Of a stretch of 27,005 nucleotides of DNA, positions 2,656-26,589 are shown piece after piece (the stretch's first letter is position 1; every line of letters starts with the position of its first letter). The notes below the pieces were generated by a model. It was not told where the DNA came from, did not search any database, and was given only the letters and a program-made list of their open reading frames with translations. Position numbers and translations under genes: made by a program. The stretch spans positions 1 to 27,005 of IMG/VR virus record IMGVR_UViG_3300020175_000039. The stretch is one strand, 5' to 3'. The stretch comes from a virus.

Positions 2656-2665
2656 TTATAAATAT
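2656..2665 (-). promoter_or_regulatory. Putative late promoter 10-mer before the collagen-like gene
   Basis: The coding strand reads ATATTTATAATAAAATATAA. The 10-mer ATATTTATAA is identical to copies in four other gaps. It ends 19 bases before the ATG at 2636. The complementary strand reads TATAAATA, the T4 late promoter octamer. Function is inferred from recurrence and position. Confidence 0.55.
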
Positions 2666-2672
2666 GTAAATT

Positions 2673-3740
2673 TTATTGTCTGTCTATGTTTACTAAAATT
2701 GTTGTGTCAGTAGTTCTAGAAGTAGGTAAAGGCTGCGCTAATTTTCCTACTGCTACTAATTCATTATTATTGTTATACATACCAACTGTTGAAATATAAG
2801 GTGAAAAGTATGAAGATGTTACAAAATTGTAAACTGTTCCATCATTACTAGAACCTGATATAGTAGTTGGATTTAATGAATAATTAAATTCGTCTTCTGC
2901 TAATGTACACTTATATTGCGTCTCATAAATAGTAAAAGAAGATGAAAATGATGCAGTTATGTTAGTAGTAAAAGCAAAGTTATCTACATCTGCATATCCT
3001 ACAGTTCTACCACCATATTTTCCTGCTCCATATTCAACATTTCCATATGATCCTGTTTCTCCAGTACCTACATTTCTAGGTCCTCCTGTAAAAATTACCA
3101 TTCCATGTTCGTATACTACGTTACCTACATTAATAGATTGAGATGGTATTCTTAAAGGGCAATCTCTCATTAATCTACCTTCTCCATCATCAAAATAACT
3201 ACCACTCGGTGTTACAATTTTTAATGATTTAGGTTGAATAAAGTCTCCAAATAGTGACTTTGGAATAGACATTACTGATATTGTTGGGTTTACTGTTCCT
3301 ACTCCATAAATTGCTTCTCCATATTTAGCTGAACCATATTTTGATCCATCTAAAGTTAAAACTGTATATGAACTAGTTGGAAAGTATTTTTCAGGTACTA
3401 AATCGGTTTGTTCAAAATTAAAATAAGCATTACTTCCTATTGGACCTATTGATGTTCCATCTGGTTGTATTGATGCTGTATTTACTTGTTGTACATCCCC
3501 ATTACTACTTGATATGTAATTTGAATAATATAATTGTTGTACTGAAGCGTATATAGCTGACTGAGTATATTGAGTATCAGTTGTTCCTGTAGTTATTACA
3601 TCATTGATTGGACTACCTAAGTATCTAGCTATATTAACATTAGATGCTGTTAAAGCATTACCTTGGTATTCAAATCCTTTAGTTAATTCTAAAGGTGATA
3701 CTATTATATCTTGTGAGTTGAATTGTTTGTACGCCGCCAT
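2673..3740 (-). CDS. Virion structural protein, paralogue of the next gene upstream
   Basis: This 355-residue protein shares its layout with the 345-residue product at 3747-4784. The clearest match is C-terminal (about 284-333): EFNYS-x-NP-x-x-ISGS, then TVGMYNNNNEL-x-AV-x-KL-x-x-PL, ending in an alternating beta strand. A weaker match lies earlier, around SIPKSLFGDFIQPKSLKI. It also has two YGxx tandem stretches, at about 134-146 (KYGSAKYGEAIYG) and 231-244 (SYGNVEYGAGKYGG), of a kind also seen in the 1535-residue protein. It follows its paralogue by 6 bases. The GAATGGATGG context holds two overlapping ATGs; the second gives the MAAYKQF start used here. No named family is recognised. It is probably a baseplate-peripheral or fibre-connecting component. 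Confidence 0.85.
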   Translation of the reverse strand: MAAYKQFNSQDIIVSPLELTKGFEYQGNALTASNVNIARYLGSPINDVITTGTTDTQYTQSAIYASVQQLYYSNYISSSNGDVQQVNTASIQPDGTSIGPIGSNAYFNFEQTDLVPEKYFPTSSYTVLTLDGSKYGSAKYGEAIYGVGTVNPTISVMSIPKSLFGDFIQPKSLKIVTPSGSYFDDGEGRLMRDCPLRIPSQSINVGNVVYEHGMVIFTGGPRNVGTGETGSYGNVEYGAGKYGGRTVGYADVDNFAFTTNITASFSSSFTIYETQYKCTLAEDEFNYSLNPTTISGSSNDGTVYNFVTSSYFSPYISTVGMYNNNNELVAVGKLAQPLPTSRTTDTTILVNIDRQ

Positions 3741-3746
3741 CCATTC

Positions 3747-4784
3747 TTAAAAATCTAATTTAACTCTAACTAAAGCTTCTTTTGTAAAGTCTTTGTTTAG
3801 AGGTTTTGATAATTTTGCTACTGCTAATAATTCATTTGAATCATTATATAACCCTACTGTTGTCATATATGTTTGAGGGTTGTTTATAAAATAATCATAT
3901 ATCACTTCACCTGTTGATCCTGATATATAGGATGGATTTTCACTATAGTTAAATTCTGAGTTTCTAGCTCTAACAAATACAAAATCTGATGTAATTGTTT
4001 CTTCACTATTTAACCCAAAGAACCCACTTCCTGAAATTGCATTCCACATTTTAAGTGAATTAACTGGTGAACCTGGTGTGTTAACAGATGTTTCTGTTTG
4101 TAAATTAAGTCCTGAAGCTGCGTTAACATCTAATGCATCTCCATTTAATAATATTGTTCCAATATCTGGTAAAAATAAACCATATGATCCACTTGCTTGT
4201 GAATATCCGTTTACATTAACTGATGTGTTTGCAACACCATCTGAACCTGATACTATTTGATATGCTCTAGTTGTACCATAATATGTTGGTAAATTAACAC
4301 CTGGTGTTTGAGAATTATCTGTTAAATGTAAAGTTGTTTCACCTGCACCACTTCCACTTAGTCTTAAATTAAAAGAACCTGGAAATAATGATTGCTTATA
4401 TCTAGATCTTTCAATACTTAAAGCATAAATAGAACTACCTGTTACATCTCCAAATACAAAATCTGCATTTTCATCTTCTAATACTAATGTTCTATATTGT
4501 CCATAAATTGTTGATGCTGGAGATATATTTGATACTAATGAATTGAAGGCATAAGCACCTCCACCACTTTTATTACCGTAGGCAATTTCAAATTGTGCAG
4601 TTGAAATAGAAGATGTAGGGTTACCATTAAAAACGGTAGTGTAATATACACCTGAATCACCCCTAATCTGATTAGATTGGGTGAAAAAAGTTGTTAACGT
4701 TGGTTCATTATTTGACCAACAAGTAGCTGTTTGCGCCTGTGCACTTACTACAAAATCGTCTGCTTCTAATCTTTTGAATGCCAT
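3747..4784 (-). CDS. Virion structural protein, paralogue of the next gene downstream
   Basis: This 345-residue protein starts MAFKRLEADDFVV. A central segment (about 117-140, with SIERSRYKQSLFPGSFNL) is followed by a Gly/Ser-rich beta region and LPDIGTILLNG (about 205-215). The C-terminal block (about 277-329: EFNYSENPSYISGS, TVGLYNDSNELLAVAKL) is strongly conserved with the neighbouring paralogue, implying a duplicated structural role. Both likely occupy similar positions in the tail or fibre attachment site. There is no transmembrane segment or catalytic motif. The leader is A-rich (AACATAAAAATAAATAAATG) with no Shine-Dalgarno site, and the gap to the upstream gene is 10 bases. The family is unnamed to me. 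Confidence 0.85.
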   Translation of the reverse strand: MAFKRLEADDFVVSAQAQTATCWSNNEPTLTTFFTQSNQIRGDSGVYYTTVFNGNPTSSISTAQFEIAYGNKSGGGAYAFNSLVSNISPASTIYGQYRTLVLEDENADFVFGDVTGSSIYALSIERSRYKQSLFPGSFNLRLSGSGAGETTLHLTDNSQTPGVNLPTYYGTTRAYQIVSGSDGVANTSVNVNGYSQASGSYGLFLPDIGTILLNGDALDVNAASGLNLQTETSVNTPGSPVNSLKMWNAISGSGFFGLNSEETITSDFVFVRARNSEFNYSENPSYISGSTGEVIYDYFINNPQTYMTTVGLYNDSNELLAVAKLSKPLNKDFTKEALVRVKLDF

Positions 4785-4794
4785 TTATTTATTT

Positions 4795-5460
4795 TTATGT
4801 TGTTGACTTAGTTATTGTAATTGGAATAGTAATTCTTGCTCCACTATCTAAACCATTAACTGTTAATGTACTTAATAATGTTGAATTTGATCCAAATAAT
4901 GTGTTTACTGTTGTTGCTCTTAACGTAAATTGTGTTCCAACTATCGTTGATGATACATTTGTTCCAATTGTTGTTGTCGCTGATGCGTTAGCACTAGCAG
5001 CAGCTGTTGTATTAATACCTGTTCCTTCGAATGTATTTAATAATCTAATATCAGCAATTGTAGCTGAGTATCCTGCTGTTTCGAATACTTGGTCATTACC
5101 TAAATAATTCAATGTTTGAGGTGTTATTGCAATTGTAGCACCCTGTTGTAATGTAATAGCATCATACCCTAAATTAAGTATAGGTAATTTAGCTGTACCT
5201 CTTGGTAATGTAGCTAATTTATATTTCATTATTTGTGATTCCTCTGGAAATGCTTCTAATAAAGGCATTCCATCTATAGCTTGACCATAGAATGCAGAAC
5301 CTGATGGATGAGTTGGTTGATAAAGTGTATAATCAATTTCATCATCTGAAAGTGCAAATTGTGTGATTCTAAAAGAACCATCGTTAGCTGCTAATAATTC
5401 TCTACCTTTAGTAGTTAGAATTGCGTCAACTGTTATTACTGAATTATTTAAATATCCCAT
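4795..5460 (-). CDS. Conserved phage structural protein of unknown role (221 aa)
   Basis: The N-terminal half (about 1-115) begins MGYLNNSVITVDAILTTKGR and continues with FRITQFALSDDEIDYTLY and HPSGSAFYG. From memory this looks like a well-conserved block found beside structural genes in marine T4-like phages, but I cannot confirm it here. The C-terminal half (about 130-221) is low in complexity, with an Ala/Thr/Ser run near 150-170 and then alternating beta strands. It lies between the 1535-residue protein and the paralogue pair and is probably a virion component. Two putative promoter elements sit in the 42-base leader (5473-5482 and 5492-5501), so the gene may begin a late transcript. No enzymatic signature is visible. 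Confidence 0.85.
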   Translation of the reverse strand: MGYLNNSVITVDAILTTKGRELLAANDGSFRITQFALSDDEIDYTLYQPTHPSGSAFYGQAIDGMPLLEAFPEESQIMKYKLATLPRGTAKLPILNLGYDAITLQQGATIAITPQTLNYLGNDQVFETAGYSATIADIRLLNTFEGTGINTTAAASANASATTTIGTNVSSTIVGTQFTLRATTVNTLFGSNSTLLSTLTVNGLDSGARITIPITITKSTT

Positions 5461-5472
5461 TGTTGTTTTTTT

Positions 5473-5482
5473 ATATAAATAT
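5473..5482 (-). promoter_or_regulatory. Near-copy of the putative late promoter 10-mer
   Basis: The coding strand reads ATATTTATAT, one base different from the 10-mer in other gaps. It ends 12 bases before the ATG at 5460. With the perfect copy 19 bases upstream it forms a doublet, the only one seen in the window. Confidence 0.4.
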
Positions 5483-5491
5483 TGTTATATG

Positions 5492-5501
5492 TTATAAATA
5501 T
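5492..5501 (-). promoter_or_regulatory. Putative late promoter 10-mer before the 221-aa protein gene
   Basis: The coding strand reads CATATTTATAACATATAACA and contains the identical 10-mer ATATTTATAA. It lies one base after the stop codon of the 1535-residue protein (5503) and 31 bases before the next ATG. The tight packing against the stop codon suggests the gap exists to hold this element. Confidence 0.5.
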
Positions 5502-5502
5502 G

Positions 5503-8500
5503 TTACTCTATTAGTTTCTTATCTCTTAGGTCACGAATCACTTTATCTGGTTCAAGCTCTATTGCTGCTATCGGATATTGTGGAAATATTATACCCGATG
5601 GTGTATTATTTTGCTTTAATAAAGGTTGATACTTATCAATAAAACTTCCTGATGGAGTTTGTACTGCTGATGAAGTAGTTGCATCACCTGTTTTTACCTC
5701 TCCACTAGCATCAAAGAAATTAGTTGTTGTATTATTACTAACTACAAATTCTTTTTCTGCTGGTAACCCACCATAAGGGAAAATATTGTCAATTACTATT
5801 GAATTTGGGCTATATCTATATCTCCTTAATATAAAGAAGTTAAGATTTGTTGAGGGTGATACTGTATTATCTAATATTAATTTTAATTTGTTTACTTGAT
5901 TTAGTGAATTATTTTCTTGTGGTGTAATTACTTCTTGTATTCTAAATGATTTTGATTCATTATTTTCAAATCTAATTTCATCTCCTACCATAACAGACCA
6001 AGGTATGTTATTTTGAGCAATTACTGTATCTGCTGGTTCTAATCCTCCAGGGAAAACTTCATTTGATGAAGCAGTATAAGGTAAAAATCCTTGGTAATAG
6101 CCATTTTCAACCCCATATGATGTATTACCATTTGGTGATTGTAATTCTATAACATTCAGTACAGGTTGTGCTGCTGATTGTGAAAAATCCCAATATGGGT
6201 AATTTAATGCATTATTTGTTGATGATTGACCACCTAAATCTCCTTCAATATTAGTTGAGAAAAATGGACCACCAACTGTTAGGTTTGGTTTTGTCCAATC
6301 CGTATACCAACTATAAGTTGGATTCCAAAAATTATGATCATCCTGTAATGGTTCTGCTTGATAATTTAAATCAACATACCATCTATATCTTGTACCTGAT
6401 ACTAGATTTTCATCATCAGCATTAGATAAATTTATTATATATTTTAAATAATCTGCGTTTTTAAGTTCTTTACCTGCTTGTGTGAATGCATCTTTAATTT
6501 GTTTCCAATGAATTCTAATTTTAAATTCTGTTCTGTTTAGTCTTAAACCAGCATTATTTTGCCCCAATATAGTTCTTAAATTAAATGATTCTGAACCATT
6601 ACCATAATAACCTAATAGACTAGGTTCTGAAAGTAATTTCATTTTACAATTTGTCCAACTATTTGTAGTTAATGATGTATTTGTTGTTTTTTGAAGTCTT
6701 ACAACAATATAACCAATATAACTTTCGTTATAATCACTACTATCCCAAAAACCACCATTGTCCGTTTTAACCTTCCATATAGCTGAGGATTCTTGTTGAT
6801 AGTTTAAAACTATTTTATAATCATCAGATAAAGAAGGTGGGTTTAAACTTGTTATACTTGGATTTGTTGCAAATGGGTCTGGTGTGAAATAATACTCTCC
6901 AGCATTACCCACATAATTAGGCTCCGATACTGATTGTGTTATTAAAGATGAAGAAACATATATGTTAGCTCCACTACCTGATAATCCATAATCTGTTGGG
7001 TAATCTATATCCGTGGTATTTACTGCTATTGATGATGTTATTCCACCTAGTAAATTAGATAAAGTAATTAATTTATCATTAAAATCAGAGGCATTAAAAA
7101 CGTTACCTTGAGCTGCTAAACCATAATTACAAAATGGAGCATCATAACTAGATACTCTATCAGGGTTACCTGCTAATGGAATTGAACTTGTAGTATTAGG
7201 GTAATCTTCACTTCCTGAAATTGCAAATGTAGACGCACCAGTTTGTGACCATAATACTGCTACTGGTTCTTTTGCTACTCTATGTATGGTTTGAAAACCA
7301 TTTAAATTATCATATTGAGATGAACCTGATACCTGATTAATACCAATTCTACCTAACATTCCTTCTGTCCAGCTTCCTTCTAAATCATAAGCTGTGTAAG
7401 GTGATAATGTAGGTTGTAAAGCATCTCCTGCTTCATTTATTAAATATTGTACATTAAGTAATATTTTGTTATTAACTACTGGGTATGGATCTATAATTTG
7501 ATTTGCAAACCCAAAATATGTCGTTAAATAATCAACTACAGGTATTACACCAAATCCAGTTTCATTTCCACCTTCACCACCTAATCCTTCTATTGTGTTT
7601 ACTCCATTAGCTGTTGATCGTGAACCATTATATCTCGGTAATATTGAGGGTAATGTTGTATAATTAGATTCTGGTACTGTTGATTTACGAGCTGAACCTG
7701 ATAATATTTGTTGGAAATTAATTGGGCTATAAGGATCAGTTGAATAATCAACTTCTTGAATTAATTTATTTCTTCTGTATTGTGATACATTATTTAAAAT
7801 TGGTTGACAATTATAAGCATTACTAAACCCATTTGTTGATTCCGATCCTGAAAATGCATTTTCTATTAATGTTGGTACTGGTTTTGCCCCACCACCGGCT
7901 AATTGATTATTAAATTCTAAATTATATTCTTTAACTACAAGTGAATTTTGAATTACATCCCCTGTTGATTTTGATACCGAAATTGAGACATTTAAACAAT
8001 CCTGGAATGAAATTGATTCCGAGGGTATTAACAAACTCATCGTATATGGTTCTGGTGTAGTATGAATGGTTGAAGACCTTAATTCCGAAGAAGTTAATGG
8101 TGTTGAACCTATATTAGGTATGCTATTTGGAAAACTACCAGTATAAATAGATATTGAAGCTGTTGTCCATGTAGTACCAGGGGTTGAGGGTTGTTCACCA
8201 TAATCTCCAGTTCCATAATCATCTGTTCCAAATACTGCTCCTGGTTCTTCACCTCTCCATACATCTACTAACATAGAAGCTGTTACTTGGATGTCTCCTG
8301 ATGGTAATTGATTAAATACATATAAACCATCTTGTGATGAGGATAATGAAGATGAATATGAAATATAAACATCATTTACTTTACTTGCAAATATTCCCTG
8401 TACTGGGGCTACATTAGTTGTATATGAAGGGTTTGTAATATTATTTGAAAATGTATTATAATTAATAGTACCCGCAAATGATGGTGTGCCTACTAATGCA

Positions 8501-10110
8501 TTATAATCAGCATAAAATCCTTTTAATAATTCAAAATATTGAGGGCTACCATCTGAGCCAGTAAATGTTATTGTTATATTAGTTGCTGCTGATGAATCTA
8601 ATTCCGCTCTATATGTTACATAATCATTATATTGACATAGTAAACCAAATTGTGTAGAACCACTAGCTGGAGTTCCATTACCTGCTGTTGTAGTAAATGC
8701 ACTTGATGTATAACTATATTCTCCATTCGTTAATGTCTGAGTTGATACTTGTGCTACTTGATTATCAGTAACACCTCTGCTCTGATTAATTCTATTAACA
8801 AGTTGTGGTGATTGTATTACTACATTTGTTGTTACTCCATTTAAAAATGGTTGATTTGGGTTAGATAATGTTCCGTTTGCTACTGTAAATTCCCAGTAAG
8901 TACCAGGACCAATATTGTCTATAGATGTTACATCATAAATAATATTATTTGATGGGTTTGAATTTTGTTCTATTCTTATTTTTCCTAATGTTTGACCATG
9001 TGAGGCAAATGATTGAGAATAAGGGCCTAAATTTAAACCTATAGCATAACTATTCGCTAATGATATTTTAGTAGCTGATTGCTGTGTTGAATTATTAATT
9101 GCTACTTTACCTGCACCTGGGTCTGCTACTGCTGTTGAAGCATTAAATCCTATAGAGTTAAATGATTCTGATACATGCTCTTCATATATGCTATAAAATG
9201 CTCCTGCTATTGGGAAACTACTTAATGTATGATATTTAGTAAATATCCAAAAATCAACATCTCTAGTATCATGATATATTGTAAATGAACCACTATCTAA
9301 TGACTGTGAAACATTACCACCACCTTCATTTCCTACTACAGATAATTGAGCATAATCATATGCATCATTAAAAATTGTTCCTGTACTATTTCCTACATTT
9401 GTATTAACAGGGCTACCAACAGGTAAATAAGGGTTTGCTGGTATACCTGATCCTGTTTCTGTTAAAATATATGATTTATATGGTCTGTGTAAATAAGGAT
9501 TGTAATTATAAGTATCTCCATCCCCACCAACAGTATTAAATCCTCTAGAAACATAAAGTTCTTGATTGTCCCCTATTGGTATTGTAGTAGATGTAAAGTT
9601 AATATTACTAGCTTGTAAAGTAATAACAATATCATCTGATGTATTAATTCCTATAAAATTTAATTGGGCAGCCGTTATAGTAATTGTTTCTCCAACTTGC
9701 CAACCATCAGAAAGTGGAAAACTACCATTACCTGATAGTATACTAACTTGTGTTACAGCAAAAACCCCAGTTGTTACTTCTGTAGATACTACTGTTAATG
9801 CCGCATTTGTACCGTTTAAACTACCATTTAAATTTGTTATGGGTGTTCCACCTGCAGCATTTGTTACTGCTATAGAACTATAATTTATTCCTGTAGATGA
9901 AGGAACTAAATATCTATGCTCAACACCATTATCTACTACATAAGATACTCCAGCACCTAAAGAGGATATTTTTGAAGTATAATTAGCATTTAATATTGGA
10001 GTAGTGTCTTTAATACTATCGATCAAAGTATTCATACCTGATTTCGTACTCGATCCAGATACAAATATTTGATTTGTTGTTTCTTTGTAATAATATTTTA
10101 TGCTACTCAT
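5503..10110 (-). CDS. Very large virion structural protein (1535 aa)
   Basis: One uninterrupted frame from MSSIKYYYKE to the charged C-terminus (VIRDLRDKKLIE). The protein is beta-rich, with abundant Asn, Ser, Thr and Gly, few Cys, no transmembrane segment and no recognised catalytic motif. At about 94-170 it carries a module also found in two other structural proteins here (GWQVGETITITAAQL then DDIVITL). At about 625-640 there is a YGxx stretch (FGTDDYGTGDYGEQ) like those in the 355-residue protein. The C-terminal third is more ordered, with EFKIRIHWKQIKDAF, YLKYIINLSNADD and YRWYVDLNYQAEP. Position after the gp7/gpI-like gene suggests a peripheral baseplate or fibre-network protein, occupying the genomic place of T4 gp8-gp10, but no homology to those is visible. 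A putative promoter 10-mer lies 14 bases before the ATG. Confidence 0.85.
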   Translation of the reverse strand: MSSIKYYYKETTNQIFVSGSSTKSGMNTLIDSIKDTTPILNANYTSKISSLGAGVSYVVDNGVEHRYLVPSSTGINYSSIAVTNAAGGTPITNLNGSLNGTNAALTVVSTEVTTGVFAVTQVSILSGNGSFPLSDGWQVGETITITAAQLNFIGINTSDDIVITLQASNINFTSTTIPIGDNQELYVSRGFNTVGGDGDTYNYNPYLHRPYKSYILTETGSGIPANPYLPVGSPVNTNVGNSTGTIFNDAYDYAQLSVVGNEGGGNVSQSLDSGSFTIYHDTRDVDFWIFTKYHTLSSFPIAGAFYSIYEEHVSESFNSIGFNASTAVADPGAGKVAINNSTQQSATKISLANSYAIGLNLGPYSQSFASHGQTLGKIRIEQNSNPSNNIIYDVTSIDNIGPGTYWEFTVANGTLSNPNQPFLNGVTTNVVIQSPQLVNRINQSRGVTDNQVAQVSTQTLTNGEYSYTSSAFTTTAGNGTPASGSTQFGLLCQYNDYVTYRAELDSSAATNITITFTGSDGSPQYFELLKGFYADYNALVGTPSFAGTINYNTFSNNITNPSYTTNVAPVQGIFASKVNDVYISYSSSLSSSQDGLYVFNQLPSGDIQVTASMLVDVWRGEEPGAVFGTDDYGTGDYGEQPSTPGTTWTTASISIYTGSFPNSIPNIGSTPLTSSELRSSTIHTTPEPYTMSLLIPSESISFQDCLNVSISVSKSTGDVIQNSLVVKEYNLEFNNQLAGGGAKPVPTLIENAFSGSESTNGFSNAYNCQPILNNVSQYRRNKLIQEVDYSTDPYSPINFQQILSGSARKSTVPESNYTTLPSILPRYNGSRSTANGVNTIEGLGGEGGNETGFGVIPVVDYLTTYFGFANQIIDPYPVVNNKILLNVQYLINEAGDALQPTLSPYTAYDLEGSWTEGMLGRIGINQVSGSSQYDNLNGFQTIHRVAKEPVAVLWSQTGASTFAISGSEDYPNTTSSIPLAGNPDRVSSYDAPFCNYGLAAQGNVFNASDFNDKLITLSNLLGGITSSIAVNTTDIDYPTDYGLSGSGANIYVSSSLITQSVSEPNYVGNAGEYYFTPDPFATNPSITSLNPPSLSDDYKIVLNYQQESSAIWKVKTDNGGFWDSSDYNESYIGYIVVRLQKTTNTSLTTNSWTNCKMKLLSEPSLLGYYGNGSESFNLRTILGQNNAGLRLNRTEFKIRIHWKQIKDAFTQAGKELKNADYLKYIINLSNADDENLVSGTRYRWYVDLNYQAEPLQDDHNFWNPTYSWYTDWTKPNLTVGGPFFSTNIEGDLGGQSSTNNALNYPYWDFSQSAAQPVLNVIELQSPNGNTSYGVENGYYQGFLPYTASSNEVFPGGLEPADTVIAQNNIPWSVMVGDEIRFENNESKSFRIQEVITPQENNSLNQVNKLKLILDNTVSPSTNLNFFILRRYRYSPNSIVIDNIFPYGGLPAEKEFVVSNNTTTNFFDASGEVKTGDATTSSAVQTPSGSFIDKYQPLLKQNNTPSGIIFPQYPIAAIELEPDKVIRDLRDKKLIE

Positions 10111-10124
10111 TGTCTATAATATAA

Positions 10125-10134
10125 TTATAAATAT
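10125..10134 (-). promoter_or_regulatory. Putative late promoter 10-mer before the 1535-aa protein gene
   Basis: The coding strand reads ATATTTATAATTATATTATA and contains the identical 10-mer. It lies 14 bases before the ATG at 10110, in the 42-base gap after the 2168-residue protein. Confidence 0.5.
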
Positions 10135-10152
10135 TTAATTTATCACGTTTTC

Positions 10153-16659: not shown

Positions 16660-16660
16660 A

Positions 16661-17203
16661 TTAATATGTTCCTGATGTTGTTCCACTTCCACCTGCCGTT
16701 GATGTTGAAGTTGAATTTGAAGGTGAATTTGCTACTATACCTGAGTTAGTAGTTCCTTCATCAAACTCTTCAGTAGAATTTAAATTTAAATCTTTTGTTA
16801 CTTGTTGTATTGTGTCATCACTAGTATTATCTAAAGCTTGAGCATCGAAGTCAATAGTTCTACCTGTTAATGCTTCTACTTTTTCAATTTGTGCTTGTAA
16901 TAAATCTTTTCTTAATTGTGTTATTTCGTCCTGTAAGCTATTAATTAATTTACTATCTTGGTCATAATTAATATACTGAGCACTTGATTCAATTAAAAAT
17001 TGGTGGGAATTAGTATCACCAAAAGCTGGTATTTCGTAGAATAAATCATTATATTGTTCAAAAAATTCTTCAACTGTAAAAGTATCATCTAGTTGTTCGG
17101 GTAGAGATATATTACCTAATTGTCTAAATTTAGTGTCAATTATTTTAGGATATTCTGTTTTAGAATATACTTTTTTTATAAGGTCAATTCTTTCCTCTGC
17201 CAT
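16661..17203 (-). CDS. Structural protein with central coiled coil (180 aa)
   Basis: The N-terminal part (about 1-80) contains TVEEFFEQYNDLFYEIP and FGDTNSHQFLIESSAQYI, giving a compact helical domain. A coiled coil follows (about 80-112, with LINSLQDEITQLRKDLLQAQ). The C-terminus is acidic and then a low-complexity Ser/Thr/Gly tail (about 155-180). It sits between the DNRLRE-like gene (11-base gap) and the giant wedge-type gene (1-base gap), so it is probably a baseplate wedge assembly partner. It resembles T4 gp53 in size and genomic neighbourhood but not visibly in sequence, so I do not use that name. Confidence 0.8.
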   Translation of the reverse strand: MAEERIDLIKKVYSKTEYPKIIDTKFRQLGNISLPEQLDDTFTVEEFFEQYNDLFYEIPAFGDTNSHQFLIESSAQYINYDQDSKLINSLQDEITQLRKDLLQAQIEKVEALTGRTIDFDAQALDNTSDDTIQQVTKDLNLNSTEEFDEGTTNSGIVANSPSNSTSTSTAGGSGTTSGTY

Positions 17204-17214
17204 TTTATAGCTTT

Positions 17215-18708
17215 TTAACCATTAATTACTTTAAAGTAATAGTTTTCATCCATTACTATAGTATTCCCTTGTATTTCTGTTTGTATCAAAATTTGATAAT
17301 ATCTTTCTGGCTCTAAACCATTCATGTATACTTTAAAAAAGCTACCTGTTGGATCACAACTTATTTGTGTAAATTCTTTATCAAAATCAACCACAAATTC
17401 ATTAGTATCTAAATCTTTTATTGCATAATAAGATGAAGATGGTAATGCATAATTCAATGTATCAATAGATGATGTTTCAAAGGTACGAACTGGGAATTCA
17501 GGACGCACGTTTAATCTAAAATTATTTATGCTTTCACTATAAAAAACACCTTGGTTATTATCTAATGACATAAAAACATCAGGTGTTGATATTACATTTA
17601 ATTGTTCAATATCAAAAGTTGATAATGTTACTACTGCATTTGTAGTAGCACCTGATACTGCTGGTAAGTTATTTAACGTAGCAGCATTCCAAGTTAATAC
17701 ATCATTTGATTTATATCCTGATCCTATTTCTTTAACAAATACATCTACCATAGATGAACTTTTAAATGTAGCTCCATAAGTAGCACCTATTCCTGTTCCT
17801 GTATTTGAATCAGGTGCAGGTAAAGATTGTGTATATGAACATGATATTGAACTTGTTATTTCGTTTGTTGGATATGAACCTGTTAATGTTCTTCCTTCTT
17901 CAAATGCACCACTACTAGTACTATATGCAAAATCCCTCCATTTTATTTCTAGTTGTGGTGGGTATATTGTGTTTGTATCAACTGAGTAATAGCTTAATTG
18001 AGGTGTTACAGCACTTGATGTTGTAAACTCTATACTATCTTCCCATTTAATAATAAATCCTTCATTTTGGATATCTGTTCTTCCGGTATTATTTCCTGTT
18101 GAACCTGAATGCCATATTTTTACAGCATTAGTTACATTCATATCTAAATCTTTGTCACTCCTTAAAGTAAACATTTGAGATGAAGTAATATCTGTAATTC
18201 CTTCATATTCACCTCCTACTACATTTGAACCTGTAAACCAAACAGCTCCTCCTGTATTGTCACTACCACTCCAAGATGCTGTAACTAAAGTTCCAAATGA
18301 TGTTATCGGCCATTCTGTTGAACCTGAATATGCTGAGTATTTCCAACTTACACCTGTTCCATTTATAATGTTATCTAAATATTGTCCTGTACCATTATTC
18401 CACGATCCAGATATAGGGTAAGCATATAATGTTGAATCTAAAGTTATATTAGTTGCTTTAGCAACATAACTTTTTAAACTAGCTGACCAGTTATTCCAAT
18501 TTGATTGAGTTACATTTGAAATAGTTGTTAACACATTATCAATTTCTGATTGATTAAATTTAACTAACGATCTTGCTACTCTAGCAACAGGGTTTGATTC
18601 TGTTACTTCGTTTTTTACATCTAAGATAGCATCAAGCCCAGTATTCATATATCTATATGCACTGTATATTGATGCGTCTTTTTCAGGAAATAATTTATAT
18701 ACTGCCAT
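17215..18708 (-). CDS. Baseplate-associated structural protein with DNRLRE-like N-terminal domain
   Basis: Residues 1-257 look like a DNRLRE-type beta domain, known from disaggregatase-related and surface adhesin proteins. Visible marks are FPEKDASIYSAYRYMNTG then ILDV, ARSLVKFNQSEI (about 46-56), the GTGVSWKYSA...W element (about 117-133), and the closing TIYPPQLEIKW (about 247-257). Residues 303-365 are a copy of the shared beta module (KEIGSGYKSNDVLTWNAATL then AVVTLSTFD). The C-terminal part (about 370-497) has a conserved look: INNFRLNVRPEFPVRTF, SYYAIKDLDTNEFVVDFD and GLEPERYYQILI. It follows gp6 by 2 bases. A peripheral baseplate or carbohydrate-contacting role is plausible; DNRLRE-like homology is by eye only. 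Confidence 0.8.
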   Translation of the reverse strand: MAVYKLFPEKDASIYSAYRYMNTGLDAILDVKNEVTESNPVARVARSLVKFNQSEIDNVLTTISNVTQSNWNNWSASLKSYVAKATNITLDSTLYAYPISGSWNNGTGQYLDNIINGTGVSWKYSAYSGSTEWPITSFGTLVTASWSGSDNTGGAVWFTGSNVVGGEYEGITDITSSQMFTLRSDKDLDMNVTNAVKIWHSGSTGNNTGRTDIQNEGFIIKWEDSIEFTTSSAVTPQLSYYSVDTNTIYPPQLEIKWRDFAYSTSSGAFEEGRTLTGSYPTNEITSSISCSYTQSLPAPDSNTGTGIGATYGATFKSSSMVDVFVKEIGSGYKSNDVLTWNAATLNNLPAVSGATTNAVVTLSTFDIEQLNVISTPDVFMSLDNNQGVFYSESINNFRLNVRPEFPVRTFETSSIDTLNYALPSSSYYAIKDLDTNEFVVDFDKEFTQISCDPTGSFFKVYMNGLEPERYYQILIQTEIQGNTIVMDENYYFKVING

Positions 18709-18710
18709 AA

Positions 18711-20552
18711 TTAAAATATTGTTACTACCCTACCTTTAATGTCGGTATTTGGATATTTAAGTTCAAAAATACTAGGATCTAATGAAGGGAATATTGTACC
18801 ATTTTGGTTGGCAGCATTCATATCATAAGCCCACTGTGAATATCCAGCTGAAACACCTGCTTTATTTGTAAGGTTTATTTGTTTAACTGTTTGTACACCA
18901 TCAATTGCATCTAATAATACAAATAAGTCTGGTGTAATAATGGGTTGGTTAATTTGCCATCTATCTATATTAAAATAATTTTGTAATGCTACAATACATC
19001 TTTGTAATACTTCATTGTTATTAAAATTAGGATATGTAATTATTTCAAAATCAATATTAAAATTAATAATAAATGCATCTTTAATACTAATAGTATCTCC
19101 AATCATCCTATATTCATTTATATAAGATTTTAAATTATTTTTTAATGTTAATGATGCTGTTGTTAATTTTTGGTTTAGATCCGATGTTAAAACATATATA
19201 TCTAAAGTTGTATTAGCATCACTAGCATTTGGTTTTTGTGTAATTGCTTTAGATATTACTCCATATTTAGGATCCATACTTAATGCTCTTACTAAATAAT
19301 CATTTGCAGTTACGTTTCTTAATTGTGTTGAAAAATTTGATATACTATTTTGTCTAATTTCTTCTATTGTATCCCCATCTTGTCCTCCACTTGCTGCTAT
19401 TACATTATTTGCTGCTAAAGTATTAAATATATATTGTGCTGTTGTTGGGTTTAAATCAGCATTTATAAAATTTATTGTTGATGTATTTAATTCATTTAAA
19501 GTATTAGAAGGTACATTTGAACCAACACCACCACCTGTATAATATCTAATTGTTAGAGTCGTATTTGAAGGGGCTACACCATAAGTATTTGTAAATATAA
19601 AATTGGTTGGTGAATATGCTGTTGTCATTTTGTTTTGTAAAAATGGCAAACCTAAACCTACGTTAAATGGGTTTGGTACTATGTCTTCTGTTGTTGAGTT
19701 GGAACTACCAGCACCAAACTGTAATTGTAATGAGTTTGAATTTAAAAATCTAGTAGCAAATCTATTTTGTACTTGTTTTGTTTGAAGTAAATAAGGAGCA
19801 TCAGTGTCAAGATATGTATTTGGATCATTTGTGTTAGTATTTTTAATACCATCAAATACTTGTTCTTGCCCTAAATAATCTACTTGATACCATTTATTAC
19901 CATCTGAGTCAACTACATCTAATATTCCTGCTATATTACCAGCTGATATTACAGTTGTAGCAAATTCTTGTGGGGCACCAAATGATACTGTTGTTGTATT
20001 TATATTACCTGAGAATGCTTTTCGTCTTTTAGCTAATAAATAATAAACTGGTAAGTTATTAGATACTTGCGCTACTGTTATTGTAGTTGGATCTAATGAA
20101 CTTGATACTGTAAAATCTATTGGTTCTTCTATTGTAAATGCTTGACTTCCACCTTGATTTGTAATTACTGTATTTGCATTTACATATACAGCATAACTAA
20201 AATCTGGGACTGTTTCACCATTAACTAGTTTAGAAGGAACTTGTTGGTAAAAATCCATTATAGTTGTAGCTAAACCTGTTACTTTTGGTGTATAACCGTA
20301 CATATAAGCTAAATCAAATATGTTACTTGGTTGTCTAGCGTATTGTAAAAAGTTTTCTTGTATTTGGTTGTCTAAATAAAAGGATAAAACATCCCCTACA
20401 TAGGCTGCTTGTTCCATAAACATCATCCCAGGGGAGGTTTCAGTAAAATCAGTGTATGTAGTAGGAAAGTATGTTTGAGAATAGTTAATCAGTTGATTTC
20501 TATACTCAGAAAAATCCTTATTAATATATTGTATGTCTCTTTTAATTGCCAT
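18711..20552 (-). CDS. 6: Baseplate wedge protein gp6-like (gpJ family)
   Basis: A 613-residue homologue of T4 gp6 (660 residues), the wedge subunit that dimerises to form the inner baseplate ring and drives its opening during sheath contraction. The N-terminus shows the family pattern: a leading MAIKRDIQYINKDF, then TSPGMMFMEQAAYVGDVLSF and YLDNQIQENFLQYARQP (about 38-75). The central J-like block at about 390-437 has EEIRQNSISNFSTQLRNVTA and NDYLVRALSMDPKYG. The C-terminal half contains IKDAFIINFNIDFEIITYPN. The start overlaps the gp25 stop by one base (TAATG), so the two are probably translationally coupled. In T4 gp6 works with gp25, gp53 and gp7, consistent with the order here. The N-terminal and central motifs make this assignment firm. 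Confidence 0.95.
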   Translation of the reverse strand: MAIKRDIQYINKDFSEYRNQLINYSQTYFPTTYTDFTETSPGMMFMEQAAYVGDVLSFYLDNQIQENFLQYARQPSNIFDLAYMYGYTPKVTGLATTIMDFYQQVPSKLVNGETVPDFSYAVYVNANTVITNQGGSQAFTIEEPIDFTVSSSLDPTTITVAQVSNNLPVYYLLAKRRKAFSGNINTTTVSFGAPQEFATTVISAGNIAGILDVVDSDGNKWYQVDYLGQEQVFDGIKNTNTNDPNTYLDTDAPYLLQTKQVQNRFATRFLNSNSLQLQFGAGSSNSTTEDIVPNPFNVGLGLPFLQNKMTTAYSPTNFIFTNTYGVAPSNTTLTIRYYTGGGVGSNVPSNTLNELNTSTINFINADLNPTTAQYIFNTLAANNVIAASGGQDGDTIEEIRQNSISNFSTQLRNVTANDYLVRALSMDPKYGVISKAITQKPNASDANTTLDIYVLTSDLNQKLTTASLTLKNNLKSYINEYRMIGDTISIKDAFIINFNIDFEIITYPNFNNNEVLQRCIVALQNYFNIDRWQINQPIITPDLFVLLDAIDGVQTVKQINLTNKAGVSAGYSQWAYDMNAANQNGTIFPSLDPSIFELKYPNTDIKGRVVTIF

Positions 20553-20959
20553 TAGTTAAAAGTTAAAGTTAGTTCATCTTCAATACCAGTATTTACTACT
20601 GAGTAATACATTTGAACTGATATTTCATTTGAATCCGGGTCTTCTAATAAAGACAGCTCTTGAAGATCTATGTTTGGAAAATTAGTTTTTATCTTATTTC
20701 CAACATCATCTTTTAAAAATTCTAATGTGTTATTTGATATTTGTTCAAATATAAATTCTCTTAAACCACCACCAAAAGCCGGATTTCCTGGCCTTTCACC
20801 TGGGTTAGTTAAGAAATAATTTATTAAATTGTTTTTTATAGATTGTGCCGTAGTATAATTTGGAATAAACACAGCTCCCCCATCTAATGGAAGGTCTACA
20901 CCTATACCAACTCGTGGTCTAGTGTCATTAGGAAATTGATTTATTGCTCCAAATGCCAT
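20552..20959 (-). CDS. 25: Baseplate wedge protein gp25-like (GPW/gp25 family)
   Basis: 135 residues, against 132 in T4 gp25. The family hallmark is at about 52-72: LTNPGERPGNPAFGGGLREF, followed by an amphipathic helix. This fold resembles the sheath-initiator subunit found in phage tails, type VI secretion (TssE) and R-type pyocins. gp25 joins the baseplate wedge to the first sheath ring. The gene has one of the few clear Shine-Dalgarno sites in the window (AAAGGATAAAAAATG). It lies 3 bases after the 120-residue protein gene and overlaps the gp6 start by one base, the usual conserved pairing. Confidence 0.95.
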   Translation of the reverse strand: MAFGAINQFPNDTRPRVGIGVDLPLDGGAVFIPNYTTAQSIKNNLINYFLTNPGERPGNPAFGGGLREFIFEQISNNTLEFLKDDVGNKIKTNFPNIDLQELSLLEDPDSNEISVQMYYSVVNTGIEDELTLTFN

Positions 20960-20962
20960 TTT

Positions 20963-21325
20963 TTATCCTTTACTTTTCATTAATCCCATTATTTGATCCA
21001 TGCTTACATTACCTTGAGGTAAACTTCCATTTGCTGACATAGTATCAACAGGCCCATTTACTTGCATAGGAACATCTGCTGATGTAGCATTTATAGTTCC
21101 ATTATTTCCAGGCATCATCCCATTTAAAACCCCCATCATATTTTCTCTTAATTTTATTTTATCATTTTCGGGTAATGGTTTTGCTTCTATAGCTTTTTCT
21201 ACTATCGGGGCAGATGTATGTGATTTAGGTGTTTTAATAGCTTCTAGTAAAATATCCTTCATCTCTTCTTGGATTGCTTCTTTAACTGCTGTTTTTACTA
21301 TGCTTTTTAATTGATTTAATTTCAT
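20963..21325 (-). CDS. Small helical protein of unknown function (120 aa)
   Basis: The N-terminal 30 residues form an amphipathic helix (MKLNQLKSIVKTAVKEAIQE), followed by a Pro/Ser/Lys linker. A Met-, Asn- and Gly-rich C-terminal half contains MMGVLNGMMPGNNG and ends in a short helix (MDQIMGLMKSKG). There is no transmembrane segment and no known domain. It sits directly before gp25 with a 3-base gap and its own putative promoter 10-mer 18 bases before the ATG, so it may head the transcript carrying gp25, gp6 and downstream wedge genes. A chaperone, scaffold or minor virion role is possible but unsupported. Confidence 0.75.
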   Translation of the reverse strand: MKLNQLKSIVKTAVKEAIQEEMKDILLEAIKTPKSHTSAPIVEKAIEAKPLPENDKIKLRENMMGVLNGMMPGNNGTINATSADVPMQVNGPVDTMSANGSLPQGNVSMDQIMGLMKSKG

Positions 21326-21343
21326 GTCAAAAAATTTAATTTA

Positions 21344-21353
21344 TTATAAATAT
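21344..21353 (-). promoter_or_regulatory. Putative late promoter 10-mer before the gp25-gp6 block
   Basis: The coding strand reads CAATATTTATAATAAATTAA and contains the identical 10-mer, with TATAAT embedded. It lies 18 bases before the ATG at 21325 in a 32-base gap. The genes from 21325 to 10153 are packed with gaps of 11 bases or less after it, so it could serve them as one unit. Confidence 0.55.
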
Positions 21354-21357
21354 TGGT

Positions 21358-23031
21358 TTAGTTTGCTTTTAAGTCATTTTGTTTAATATAAAATGCTAGT
21401 TCGTCAATTAGTATTTGATCATCTGCAGCAAACGATTTTTCTCCCTTTAAAATTACTATTCCTCGTGAGTCTTTTGCAACTGCATAACGTTGATATAAAT
21501 CTCCTTCTCCATAATTTTGAGCATTTTCTGTATCCGCTACTACTATTAATTCAAACCCATTTACAAAATTATCTGGAGTTTCACCTTGTGCATCTTGTTG
21601 TGCCTGTAATGCTAATAATTCTGAATTAATTTCTTCCATTTCAAGTTCTCCATCAGCACAGTCTCCTATTAATAAATCAATAGTTTTTAAATACTTTAAT
21701 ATTATAAATAAGCATATAACTAGTATAATTAAAGATATTAATATGGATTTTTTTATGTCTTTAAACTCCTTGGCAAAAGTTATTAATAATTCTTTTATTT
21801 CTTGAAGTTTACCTACTAAGGAATAACTTGCAAATTGTAAAGGAATAGGTAATTTATCTAATGCTTTTTCTATTATTGCGAAGTTTTTTGTTAGAATTAA
21901 AAACGCTACTGCTAGTGCTGAGTTAGTTATAATAACACTATATATGTTGTTTAATTGTCTTACTATTGAGTTTCTTCTTTTAATACACTGCTTTAATATT
22001 GTATTATCAGGACACCTAGCTTGATTTTTTTGTGCTAATTTAGCTATTCCAAAATTAATTAATAAACCTATAGCAAGTGGTAATAATTTTTGTTGTGCTA
22101 TAGTAGCAAACCCTAATACTTCTTTTTTTACAGCATTAATGGTTCGTTCAACAGGTTCAAATAATATATCTATCTGTTCATCTATTAATTTATTTATTTC
22201 ATCAACAACTTTTTGTTTTTCTTCTTTTGATAACTCTTTAATATTTAACATTCCTACAGGAGGGAGTTGTTCTTTAATTACATGATCACCTTTAATCATT
22301 TGTTGGAAGTAAGGTGTAAAATTAGTATCAACTCCTTCACCTGTGTTATATAATAAAATAGGTCTTAGAGGTACAACGGGATAATCTGGGTCTCCTATTA
22401 CTGGTATTCCAAATTTAATTTCAAATTCCCCATCACCATCGGTTTTAATTTCTTTAGCTTTTTTTCTTTCATCATCACTCATACTTTGTAAACTTGGGTC
22501 TTGTATGTATGATATTCTTTCTGTGGTTTTAAAATTAGACCACCTAAATGATTTTGCTTCTTCTAATTCTTCTCCTTCTTCAAGTTTTTCCTTCTGTCGT
22601 TCTTGTCTTTGTTCTTGTCTATTATCAAAATTATTTCTTCTTTCTTGAAGTCTATTCCATCTTTTTTCATCTAATTGTTCTACTATACCTTCTTTATTAG
22701 TTGCAAAGAATGATTTTTTATAAACTACATTACCATTCTCATCTTTTTCAGGTACTATAGGATATAATACTAAGGGGGATGATACTGGTATTCCTGGTAT
22801 GTTTGTTTTTTTACGAAGATCATATAATCTTCCTTTTACAGTAAATACTTCTATTCTTATAGAACGTAATATCTTTTTTATTTTATCAGCGTCTTTTTTT
22901 GCTTTTGTAATATCATCTCCATCAACATTTCCGGTATCAACTCCTAAATTCTTTTTAATTAGTTCTATACCTTTAGGTGAACTTAAAAATGATTTTGCTG
23001 CATCTAATATTGTATCTAAATCTAACTTCAT
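21358..23031 (-). CDS. Membrane-segment virion protein, tape-measure or hub candidate (557 aa)
   Basis: The N-terminal region (about 1-55) is helical and Lys-rich. At about 58-95 and 197-230 are two halves of what may be a beta-sandwich (FTVKGRLYDLRKKTNIPGIP and DGDGEFEIKFGIPV), like carboxypeptidase-regulatory or CNA-B folds, split by a highly charged coiled segment (about 120-160, QEQRQERQKEKLEEGEELEE). Three hydrophobic segments follow at about 316-333, 363-385 and 429-447. A compact C-terminal domain (about 493-550) includes RYAVAKDSRGIVILKGEKSF. Hydrophobic segments and length (T4 gp29 is 590 residues) would suit a tape measure or a membrane-contacting hub protein, but no homology is visible. 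It is preceded by the needle-like gene with a 1-base gap. The function is inferred. Confidence 0.75.
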   Translation of the reverse strand: MKLDLDTILDAAKSFLSSPKGIELIKKNLGVDTGNVDGDDITKAKKDADKIKKILRSIRIEVFTVKGRLYDLRKKTNIPGIPVSSPLVLYPIVPEKDENGNVVYKKSFFATNKEGIVEQLDEKRWNRLQERRNNFDNRQEQRQERQKEKLEEGEELEEAKSFRWSNFKTTERISYIQDPSLQSMSDDERKKAKEIKTDGDGEFEIKFGIPVIGDPDYPVVPLRPILLYNTGEGVDTNFTPYFQQMIKGDHVIKEQLPPVGMLNIKELSKEEKQKVVDEINKLIDEQIDILFEPVERTINAVKKEVLGFATIAQQKLLPLAIGLLINFGIAKLAQKNQARCPDNTILKQCIKRRNSIVRQLNNIYSVIITNSALAVAFLILTKNFAIIEKALDKLPIPLQFASYSLVGKLQEIKELLITFAKEFKDIKKSILISLIILVICLFIILKYLKTIDLLIGDCADGELEMEEINSELLALQAQQDAQGETPDNFVNGFELIVVADTENAQNYGEGDLYQRYAVAKDSRGIVILKGEKSFAADDQILIDELAFYIKQNDLKAN

Positions 23032-23032
23032 G

Positions 23033-24316
23033 CTATACAGATTTTACTTTTTTAGATAAAAATTTAGATATATCATTTTGTATATTTTGGATTTGGGGTA
23101 TTATCATTATAGCTTTTGCTGATGTAGATGTAAGACTTGATTCACTTGATAATGAGCTACATAATGTTTCTACATTTTTTAATAAACTAGAAAATGATTT
23201 CATAAAAGTATCACCTAATACTAAGGATTCATTGGCTTCATTTCCACCTAAATTAATATATCCTCTTTCGCTGCTTAAATTAACATTTTTTTCTCTAGAG
23301 TTAAATCCTATATCTTCATTAGATTCCCCTATTATTGATTTTTGAGCAGACATTATAATATTATCTTCTTTAGAATTAAAAATTAATCTATTAGAATTAA
23401 CCATTACCTGTGACCCACTATATTGTCTAGGGTCTATAGGTGTTTTTGATATAATATTATTTAAAGGTACAGTTGCAGATTCTCCTACTGCTAAATTTAA
23501 TGTTGCTATTTCTAAAGGTACACGTTGAGTTGAAGTTAAATATATTGATGTTGGGTCATCATTTATACTTTCAACTATTGGAACCCATGATTCATTACTT
23601 CCTGTAATTTTGGGTTGACCATTTTTTAATACCATAATAGGGCTCCCTTGTTTTCCTATTGAAGACCAATTATTAACAATATCACCATCAACCGTTGTTG
23701 TACTACCTAAACGAATTGTATTACTAAATCTACCTTCAATTATATTATCACCTGCAAATGGTAAAATAGGTTTAACATTTCCGTTTTCTACAAATTTTCC
23801 CCCACTCTGACCATTAAGATCAAGTTCAAATTCTTCATTGTTTTCTTTATTTGTAGCACCCGCTTGAATACTATCATAAGATTTAGTCTGAGATGGTGAG
23901 TTAGTATTTACTAAGTATGATGGATAACCATTCTGTTCAGGATGATTCCAAATACCAATTGGATTTAAATAATAATATTCATAATTGCCTGCAGCTCCTG
24001 GGTTTTCTGTGGATGGTAATTTAAATAAAAGTACTAATTCATTTACTAGTGGAAAATTTTTAAATTGTGGGTATAAGGGTTTTGCAGTATTAGAAGGATC
24101 ATCAACTGTACTTGTAGGTTGATCTAATATTTCATATTTAATTGTACCAATAGCACCCCACCCACCTTGTTTAAATAATTTTGAGTCTGAGTTTAAAGAG
24201 ATATCGATAACCCTAGCTACTATTAAATTATTTTTTAAATCTTCAATAGTACTATCTGAATTATTAGAACCTCCAGTAAGAGTTCTATTTAAATAAGCTA
24301 AACCTGTTACAGACAT
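23033..24316 (-). CDS. gp5/VgrG-like baseplate hub and needle protein, no lysozyme domain
   Basis: The first part (about 30-180) has an OB-fold character (NNLIVARVIDISLNSDS; GAIGTIKYEIL; LVNELVLLFKLP). The motif PILPFAGDNIIEGRFSNTIR (about 183-202) is typical of gp5/gpV spike proteins. Residues about 296-357 contain repeating short strands (NSNRLIFNSKEDNIIMSAQK, then VNLSSERGYINLG) resembling the triplex beta-helix needle. The C-terminus (about 360-427) is helical. T4 gp5 has an internal lysozyme domain, which is absent here, so peptidoglycan cutting would depend on another protein. The overlap with the upstream 117-residue gene is one base (TAATG). The gp5-like assignment rests on the GD-x-I-IEGR motif and the needle-like repeats. 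Confidence 0.75.
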   Translation of the reverse strand: MSVTGLAYLNRTLTGGSNNSDSTIEDLKNNLIVARVIDISLNSDSKLFKQGGWGAIGTIKYEILDQPTSTVDDPSNTAKPLYPQFKNFPLVNELVLLFKLPSTENPGAAGNYEYYYLNPIGIWNHPEQNGYPSYLVNTNSPSQTKSYDSIQAGATNKENNEEFELDLNGQSGGKFVENGNVKPILPFAGDNIIEGRFSNTIRLGSTTTVDGDIVNNWSSIGKQGSPIMVLKNGQPKITGSNESWVPIVESINDDPTSIYLTSTQRVPLEIATLNLAVGESATVPLNNIISKTPIDPRQYSGSQVMVNSNRLIFNSKEDNIIMSAQKSIIGESNEDIGFNSREKNVNLSSERGYINLGGNEANESLVLGDTFMKSFSSLLKNVETLCSSLSSESSLTSTSAKAIMIIPQIQNIQNDISKFLSKKVKSV

Positions 24317-24669
24317 TATTTTTCTTTACTTTCAGTATAAGTTGTGTTTAATTTATCTAATTCAGCCATTAATTCTTCTTTTTCGGCTTCGGTAATACCC
24401 AATGAATCATCGCTGCTACTATTATTAATCGCACGCTGTACTATAGTAGCCATTTTAATTAATTGTTCATCGTTACGAATACCAATTTCCATATATTCTT
24501 TAATAAGTGGTACAATTAAAGTTGCATCACCAATATCATTAATTAATGGTTTTAGTTCTGATATTAAACCTGAAATTTGGGTTTCTTTTTTCTTTTGATT
24601 ATCGTAAATCTCACTTAGTATGTCCGAAAACTTTTTTTTCTTAAATACAATATTGTCTAGTGATCCCAT
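24316..24669 (-). CDS. Small helical protein, possible baseplate hub assembly factor
   Basis: 117 residues, almost entirely predicted helix and highly charged. Residues about 10-45 form an amphipathic or coiled segment (DILSEIYDNQKKKETQISGL). A central hydrophobic helix lies at about 46-66 (DATLIVPLIKEYMEIG). A final coiled segment is Glu/Lys-rich (ITEAEKEELMAELDKLN). No transmembrane segment or enzymatic motif is seen. It overlaps the needle gene by one base, so it is probably made with it. T4 places small hub-assembly genes (26, 51) near the hub; a similar role is possible by position only. A putative promoter 10-mer lies 10 bases before the ATG. Confidence 0.75.
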   Translation of the reverse strand: MGSLDNIVFKKKKFSDILSEIYDNQKKKETQISGLISELKPLINDIGDATLIVPLIKEYMEIGIRNDEQLIKMATIVQRAINNSSSDDSLGITEAEKEELMAELDKLNTTYTESKEK

Positions 24670-24679
24670 AGTGTTTTTA

Positions 24680-24689
24680 TTATAAATAT
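24680..24689 (-). promoter_or_regulatory. Putative late promoter 10-mer before the hub gene cluster
   Basis: The coding strand reads CATATTTATAATAAAAACAC and contains the identical 10-mer. It lies 10 bases before the ATG at 24669. It separates the sigma-factor gene from the structural genes, which fits a late promoter at the head of the structural block. Confidence 0.55.
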
Positions 24690-24704: not shown

Positions 24705-25409
24705 TTAAAACTTACACCAACCGTTTTCTAAATAAAAGATATATTGACTTTTAAAAATATCATGAAGTTTATCTGCTATTTTAGTTATTTTTGGGGTTTT
24801 TACATCAATAATTTCTCTAATATAGATATAAAGTGCTTTTTTATTAAAAACTTCAATAGTTTCTCTTTTTCTAAACAACTCAAGTATAGCATCTGCTATT
24901 TGAGCATCATTTTTCTTTGGAAATAATTCAAAAATATTTTCTGTAGTGTGTTCTACAAATAATTCTATATACTTACTTAAATCATCTTTAGCTGCTCCAT
25001 CACCCATACTGTAAGTATGTGTTGATTTTTCACCCATTAATACATCAACTTCAACCTTTTTAATTTTTTTATTATAGTTTTTAGTGTTATATAATATTAA
25101 CCAACGTTTAACTATAGTACCAAAATAAGAGTAAGCTTTAGCTCCTCTTGTTGGGTCAAATAAATGAATTTTTGATAATAAAAAGGTTATTATCTCATGT
25201 TGGAGGTGTTCTAAATTCTCAACCTCTGTATGGTAGAACTTAAATGTGTGAATAATGTTTTGTGTTAGCTTAAAAAACGCGTAATGAATTTCGCGCTCGT
25301 AAATTTTGGATCTAATCTCAGAATCTGGTGTGTTATTGTAAAGTACAATAGCGTTTTCCGTATCCTGAGTAAAATAATTTTTACTCTTTTTTCTTCTTTT
25401 TCTTACCAT
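24705..25409 (-). CDS. 55: gp55-like late transcription sigma factor
   Basis: 234 residues; T4 gp55 has 185. The N-terminus is strongly basic (MVRKRRKKSKNYF). Residues about 30-105 look like sigma region 2: IHYAFFKLTQNIIHTF, then HEIITFLL, then IHLFDPTRGAKAYSYF, IVKRWLILYN. The FDPxRGxxxYSYF element is the usual core of a sigma region 2.1-2.4. The C-terminal part (about 145-234) is helical and its relation to the T4 C-terminal sliding-clamp tail is unclear. gp55 directs host RNA polymerase to phage late promoters (TATAAATA in T4). It lies among genes with repeated AT-rich motifs, which is consistent. It overlaps the stop of the 93-residue gene by one base (TAATG). Confidence 0.75.
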   Translation of the reverse strand: MVRKRRKKSKNYFTQDTENAIVLYNNTPDSEIRSKIYEREIHYAFFKLTQNIIHTFKFYHTEVENLEHLQHEIITFLLSKIHLFDPTRGAKAYSYFGTIVKRWLILYNTKNYNKKIKKVEVDVLMGEKSTHTYSMGDGAAKDDLSKYIELFVEHTTENIFELFPKKNDAQIADAILELFRKRETIEVFNKKALYIYIREIIDVKTPKITKIADKLHDIFKSQYIFYLENGWCKF

Positions 25410-26477: not shown

Positions 26478-26489
26478 AACTTTTATTAT

Positions 26490-26549: not shown

Positions 26550-26589
26550 TTTTTCCTAAACCCTGTACGTCCAAGATAATGGAAAGATT

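Follow-up and report, generated by a model that had tools for sequence, protein, structure and literature searches.

The viral record IMGVR_UViG_3300020175_000039 carries one and the same 10-mer, ATATTTATAA, in several of its intergenic gaps, which raises the question of whether this sequence is a promoter, which genes it would control and by which sigma factor it would be read. A reading of the sequence alone had proposed a late promoter, to be recognized by a gp55-like sigma factor encoded in the same window, the window being the whole stretch of 27,005 nucleotides that was analysed. Because the contig is the entire record, the whole-genome count was replaced by a count in relatives. The comparative evidence from gap and strand counts, from enrichment before virion genes and from the fold of the sigma factor supports this proposal well. 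In all likelihood, as judged by comparative sequence analysis, ATATTTATAA is the core of a strand-specific one-box late promoter in a large group of far-T4 phages with probable Bacteroidetes hosts, and the neighbouring gp55-like sigma factor is its most likely reader.

The box in the window

A recount on both strands returned five exact copies of ATATTTATAA, all on the minus strand, which is the coding strand of every gene called in the window, and none on the plus strand; the copies lie where the sequence-only reading had placed them. Exactly five gaps measure 32-42 bases and these are the five that contain the 10-mer, as had been claimed; it was not found in the shorter gaps of 10, 10, 11 and 26 bases, nor in the 179-base gap at 26478-26656. 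The spacing of 10-31 bases to the following ATG was likewise reproduced, and so was the presence of TATAAT in four of the five exact copies, the one at 5492 reading TATAAC.

The candidate box at 2656-2665 (minus strand, followed by TAAA) is located 19 bases before the ATG of a gene for a collagen-like tail fibre (855-2636, minus strand), assigned by a phrog tail fibre match. The repeats of this gene give rise to a spurious plus-strand ORF of 119 amino acids (1981-2340). At 5492-5501 (minus strand, followed by CATA), 31 bases separate the box from the ATG of 4795-5460, a gene whose orthologue is preceded by a box also in the relatives G006 and G011 and in Flavobacterium phage vB_FspM_immuto_2-6A (hereafter immuto). 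The same ATG has a second, variant box 12 bases before it at 5473-5482 (minus strand, followed by AAAA); this is the one-mismatch copy reported earlier. It reads ATATTTATAT, a form that also precedes certain late genes of immuto and of phage Mel-JY01. The copy at 10125-10134 (minus strand, followed by TTAT) precedes the large ORF 5503-10110, with 14 bases between box and ATG. For the one at 21344-21353 (minus strand, followed by TAAA), the distance is 18 bases to the ATG of 20963-21325, a gene at the head of the baseplate wedge genes at 18711-20959 on the minus strand (gp6-like, 18711-20552; gp25-like, 20552-20959). Finally, the copy at 24680-24689 (minus strand, followed by TAAA) is 10 bases away from the ATG of 24316-24669 and comes directly after the sigma gene; its position is kept in G006 and, in the form ATATTTATAT, in immuto (78906).

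No box occurs in the sole long gap of the window, 26478-26656. A conserved stretch within it can be translated into a short basic peptide (MKVKVFKKDIENS.. / RAIVKSFHYLGRTGFRKKWELKQRHQG..), which is divided between two frames and interrupted by stops in some relatives; the stretch is possibly the remnant of a small gene, or else an RNA.

Under a first-order Markov model of the window gaps, ATATTTATAA is expected in 0.05 gaps versus the five observed, and none of 20,000 simulations produced a 10-mer present in more than four gaps. Matches with one mismatch on both strands number 18 in the window versus 24.4 in shuffles, that is, fewer, so that the signal resides in exactness, strand and position. 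The coding sequence of the window contains no copy of the 10-mer, in agreement with the earlier inspection by eye; since just 0.4-0.6 copies are expected there, this count is uninformative within the window alone.

Conservation and architecture in relatives

Relatives were collected with the sigma-like ORF at 24705-25409, and not the motif, as bait, which gave 80 loci of 82-100% identity; in IMG/VR, at least 566 stretches match the sigma gene. No other 10-mer is as common in the gaps of the 80 loci as ATATTTATAA, with 164 gap copies co-directed with the downstream gene versus 5 reversed and 12 in coding sequence (8 + 4 in 800 kb). The same strand bias is seen in 16 whole records. Gaps constitute 1.7-5.9% of the sequence of 13 long records among these 16 but contain nearly all copies (94 gap copies versus 1.44 expected; 2 reversed). 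Taken together with the window, these longer records have 101 gap copies, 99 of them on the major strand. Numerous sites are orthologous between loci and so do not count as independent; removal of those with similar flanks left 55 dereplicated sites, on which the following description is based.

With mutually different flanks, the 55 sites have in common the box, a T or C after it and, 11-13 bases past its first base, a run of A, where A accounts for 67-85%; an AT-rich segment thus follows directly downstream, as in a T4-type late promoter. The consensus across the group is [AC]TATTTAT[AT][AT]NAAA. Upstream of the box, relative entropy is near zero from -60 to -5, indicating that there is no conserved upstream element in this range; slight preferences are seen in the four bases before the box. 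The sites therefore present a single -10-like box without a conserved -35 region, which is characteristic of T4-type late promoters. The last T of TATAAT is replaced by C in 24% and by A in 11% of the sites, neighbouring clades retain [AC]TATTTAT[AT], and loci with about 60% identity to the immuto sigma factor have the form CTATTTATA[AT]; TATAAT, read as a sigma-70 -10 box, is thus not the conserved part. The distance from the end of the box to the ATG has a median of 14 bases and ranges from about -1 to 45, which is too variable for a ribosome-site signal at a fixed distance. The predicted architecture of the class, one box and then A-rich sequence, is that of T4 late promoters.

Genes behind the boxes

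The annotated genome of the isolate immuto has 8 exact copies of the 10-mer on the plus strand and 0 on the minus strand. The relaxed form [AC]TATTTATAA occurs at 15 gap sites versus 1 reversed site and is found before the genes for portal, sheath, tube and a spike, among others; relaxed boxes also precede terL, the hub and tape measure genes, and the ortholog of 24316-24669 of the window. A box is the nearest upstream promoter for 14 of 20 virion genes versus 5 of 39 genes of replication or metabolism (Fisher p = 1.7e-5, with genes of one operon counted separately and hence not independent). As in T4-type late promoters, the box is thus situated before virion genes. The gap before the major capsid gene lacks a box, and transcription of this gene would come from further upstream; one copy (1336) sits in a replication region. 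According to its annotation (NC_055915.1), immuto possesses two family A DNA polymerase genes and a DnaB helicase, and a gp45-type clamp was not found in it, unlike in T4.

Phage Mel-JY01 (PP395634.1), deposited as a Microcystis phage, has a sigma factor with 38% identity and carries ATATTTATAT before its tail tube gene and its presumed portal gene; one reverse-strand site faces a reverse-strand gene. The occurrence of nearly the same box in a phage that is reported from Microcystis and has a sigma factor of 38% identity implies that the box follows the sigma gene and not the host. The gp55-like and gp6 baseplate proteins of Mel-JY01 are close to those of the Flavobacterium phage group, yet GGAG-like ribosome sites precede its genes. 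As a query against viral contigs, the Mel-JY01 sigma factor retrieved no relatives. The 50 kb of LR756508 that were examined show no such motif, and its sigma factor as a viral-contig query found two loci only, with no box in them.

A second, host-type promoter class

The gaps of the relatives also hold the sequence TTTGG(C)TACC, followed after about 10 bases by TTCGTATATTTAC, that is, TTTG and TATATTTA 20 bases apart. This class occurs in the same genomes as the box and is found before small unknown genes. Its equivalent in immuto, GTTG, 20 bases and TATATTTAGGTATCAATAATTA, precedes many small ORFs at 67-76 kb. In these phages the host-type promoters follow the Bacteroidetes pattern TTG-N18-22-TAnnTTT[AG] rather than TTGACA/TATAAT, and match TAnnTTTG, the sigma-A consensus mapped in Flavobacterium (F. 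psychrophilum; PMC9723704). The combination of TTG, about 20 bases and TATATTTA[C/G] recurs many times in front of small ORFs in the relatives G001-G016 and at 60954-76214 of immuto, where about a dozen copies, nearly identical to one another, have the extended form TATATTTAGGTATCAATAATTA.

The detection of this class in the same gaps demonstrates that the method sees a two-part promoter where one exists, the 10-mer class being one-part. A -33 TTTG about 20 bases before TAnnTTTG is absent at the 55 box sites and present at the second class of the same genomes. A stretch ATATTTA is common to the Bacteroidetes sigma-A promoter (-33 TTTG, -7 TAnnTTTG) and the box, but the latter is devoid of the -33 element and differs in its end and its first base. 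The immuto sites 25036 and 90659 fit both classes at once (TTG-N20/21-TATATTTATAA) and possibly are promoters used early and late. A scan of the window for the host-type pattern gave matches only inside coding sequence; there is consequently no such early promoter in the window gaps.

The gp55-like sigma factor

The proposed reader of the box is the 234-amino acid product of the ORF at 24705-25409 (minus strand), for which both fold and profile matches are available. The window ORF alone gives weak Pfam and PHROG scores. Among 37 homologues, the commonest matches are Sigma70_r2 (weak, 24 of 37) and the late sigma family phrog_234 (20 of 37 at E <= 1, best E 0.0067); the phrog_234 hit is unique and located at the position of the gp55-like gene in 9 of 15 records of relatives. 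Alignment with the gp55 family (eight gp55 proteins) by hhalign yields a probability of 74.5% and E 2.7e-5 over 101 columns, single-sequence matches to gp55 being below the usual cut-offs. An AlphaFold2 model is helical with a mean pLDDT of 74. Its best structural match by VIA-align is T4 gp55 in the open promoter complex (7d7c_F), followed mostly by sigma chains, with a Z of 10.8 that, for a mostly helical model, is within the range where the tool warns of a common helical arrangement. Region 2 of the sigma chains is aligned at 2.4-2.8 A over about 93 residues, and that of sigma-E, SigW and RpoS at 2.6-2.8 A over 92-93 residues. Foldseek with the model gave nothing below E 0.47, and PDB sequence searches with the ORF and its profile gave no sigma matches. 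Late sigma factors of the gp55 family have a hydrophobic motif for clamp binding at the C terminus; the C-terminal end of the window ORF product, ...YIFYLENGWCKF, is, as judged by eye, not kept in immuto or Mel-JY01. By these models the protein has a sigma region 2 fold, and it would be a divergent gp55-like sigma factor, the fold of which matches T4 gp55 best, with modest support from sequence.

A T4-type late promoter initiates transcription about 6 bases after its box, late in infection, and is activated by the sliding clamp gp45 together with the coactivator gp33. Searches for a gp45-type or beta clamp with PF09116, which does find T4 gp45, and PF00712 gave nothing in immuto, Mel-JY01 and the other relatives; this absence carries little weight, as Mel-JY01 is annotated with clamp-loader genes yet appears clampless by PF09116 and PF00712. 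With no gp45 sliding clamp detected in the relatives, it would be unwarranted to extend the T4 activation mechanism to them. It is conceivable, if rather doubtful, that the gp55-family sigma factor in far-T4 Bacteroidetes phages has switched to TATTTATA and needs no T4-type sliding clamp to drive late genes; if so, late transcription would not be coupled to replication through gp45.

Proposed mechanism and alternative readings

In the scenario envisaged, the 234-amino acid sigma factor would recruit host core RNA polymerase to the box. Counted from the first base of the box, transcription would begin 11-14 bases further on, within the conserved A-run, resulting in short leaders. The box promoters would drive the operons of virion genes, while early genes would use the host sigma-A-type promoters (TTG, about 20 bases, TAnnTTTA/G).

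An origin of the 10-mer from AT-rich gap composition and chance hardly comes into consideration. The window is 69% AT and its one-mismatch count is not above that of the shuffles, as such an origin would have it, but the Markov controls fall far short of the observed number, the copies are strand-biased, and the box is kept across divergent flanks; the counts in the 80 loci and the 13 long records and the Markov test of the window rule chance out. The orientation of the box bears on another reading, in which TATAAATA, the T4 late promoter, would point the opposite way and generate antisense transcripts of the upstream gene. It builds on the fact that TATTTATA, the sequence as read towards the gene, and the T4 octamer TATAAATA are exact reverse complements of each other, and T4 late transcripts are known to run in either polarity (PMC2988020). 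Yet the box is on the strand of, and aimed at, the downstream gene at nearly all sites, the conserved A-run is on its gene side, and the window shows no excess of TATAAATA in the direction of genes (2 versus 8 reversed). T4 itself, run through the same pipeline, has TATAAATA, and not its complement, facing genes (18 versus 1.93 expected). Such antisense promoters are accordingly very improbable, and the suggestion that the T4 octamer on the opposite strand is the functional reading is abandoned.

A signal acting on the mRNA, where the leader would contain an enhancer of translation or a site of RNA processing, might be considered for a box so close before start codons, the more so as Bacteroidetes have no Shine-Dalgarno sites and use Kozak-like leaders instead (PMC6847099). 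The variable spacing to the ATG speaks against it, as does the restriction of the box to the heads of presumed operons, with many genes that have short or no gaps being without it; moreover, Mel-JY01 has the box and its genes do carry GGAG sites, all of which makes this explanation improbable. Somewhat less remote, albeit still unlikely, is a late or middle promoter that is read, with the help of a phage activator, by host sigma-A or by an alternative host sigma factor, leaving another role to the gp55-like ORF. The stretch ATATTTA that the box has in common with TATATTTA, the host-type -7 element of these phages, would agree with this, and so would the few immuto sites that fit both patterns (25036 and 90659). 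It is countered by the -33 element, which is not conserved at box sites and is strong at the host-type class of the same genomes, and by the first T of TAnnTTTG, which is not kept, TAA coming next instead. Furthermore, the alternative-sigma motifs mapped in F. psychrophilum are of the sigma-54 -24/-12, TAnnTTGY and CGT types (PMC9723704), and nearly the same box is present in a phage reported from a cyanobacterium. A late promoter dependent on the phage-encoded gp55-like sigma factor is preferred over these readings.

Comparison with T4-type late promoters

A literature search, with most subscription papers outside its reach, revealed no description of the box motif, and an exact-string search for TATTTATAA gave nothing on phage promoters among the papers it listed. 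The box would provide a sequence handle for assigning early and late genes in an abundant and almost unannotated group of marine phages.

Like the box, the late promoter of T4 consists of a single element of about 8 bp, roughly one helical turn before the presumed start, with AT-rich sequence downstream, no -35 element and a tightly kept consensus; it is found before virion genes, and a sigma factor of the gp55 family is encoded by the phage (PMC2988020). The two differ in sequence, T4 having TATAAATA and the box having the core TATTTATA with [AC] before it and [AT] and the A-run after it. Compared in the direction of transcription, six of the eight bases are the same, and bases four and five differ. 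What is conserved in this direction is therefore [AC]TATTTAT[AT] and not the T4 octamer; a further difference is the gp45 clamp, not detected in the relatives. That the consensus can drift within the T4 family is known from Aeh1, the late-promoter variant of which has a/gC at -13/-12 (PMC2988020); Aeh1 alters the first two bases, the box group bases four and five. From the sequence comparison, the box is probably a gp55-dependent T4-type late promoter with a new consensus. T4, Aeh1, the box group and Mel-JY01 would then form a natural series of joint divergence between a single sigma family and its box, which could be used to work out DNA recognition by gp55 and to learn if late transcription in general depends on the clamp as it does in T4.
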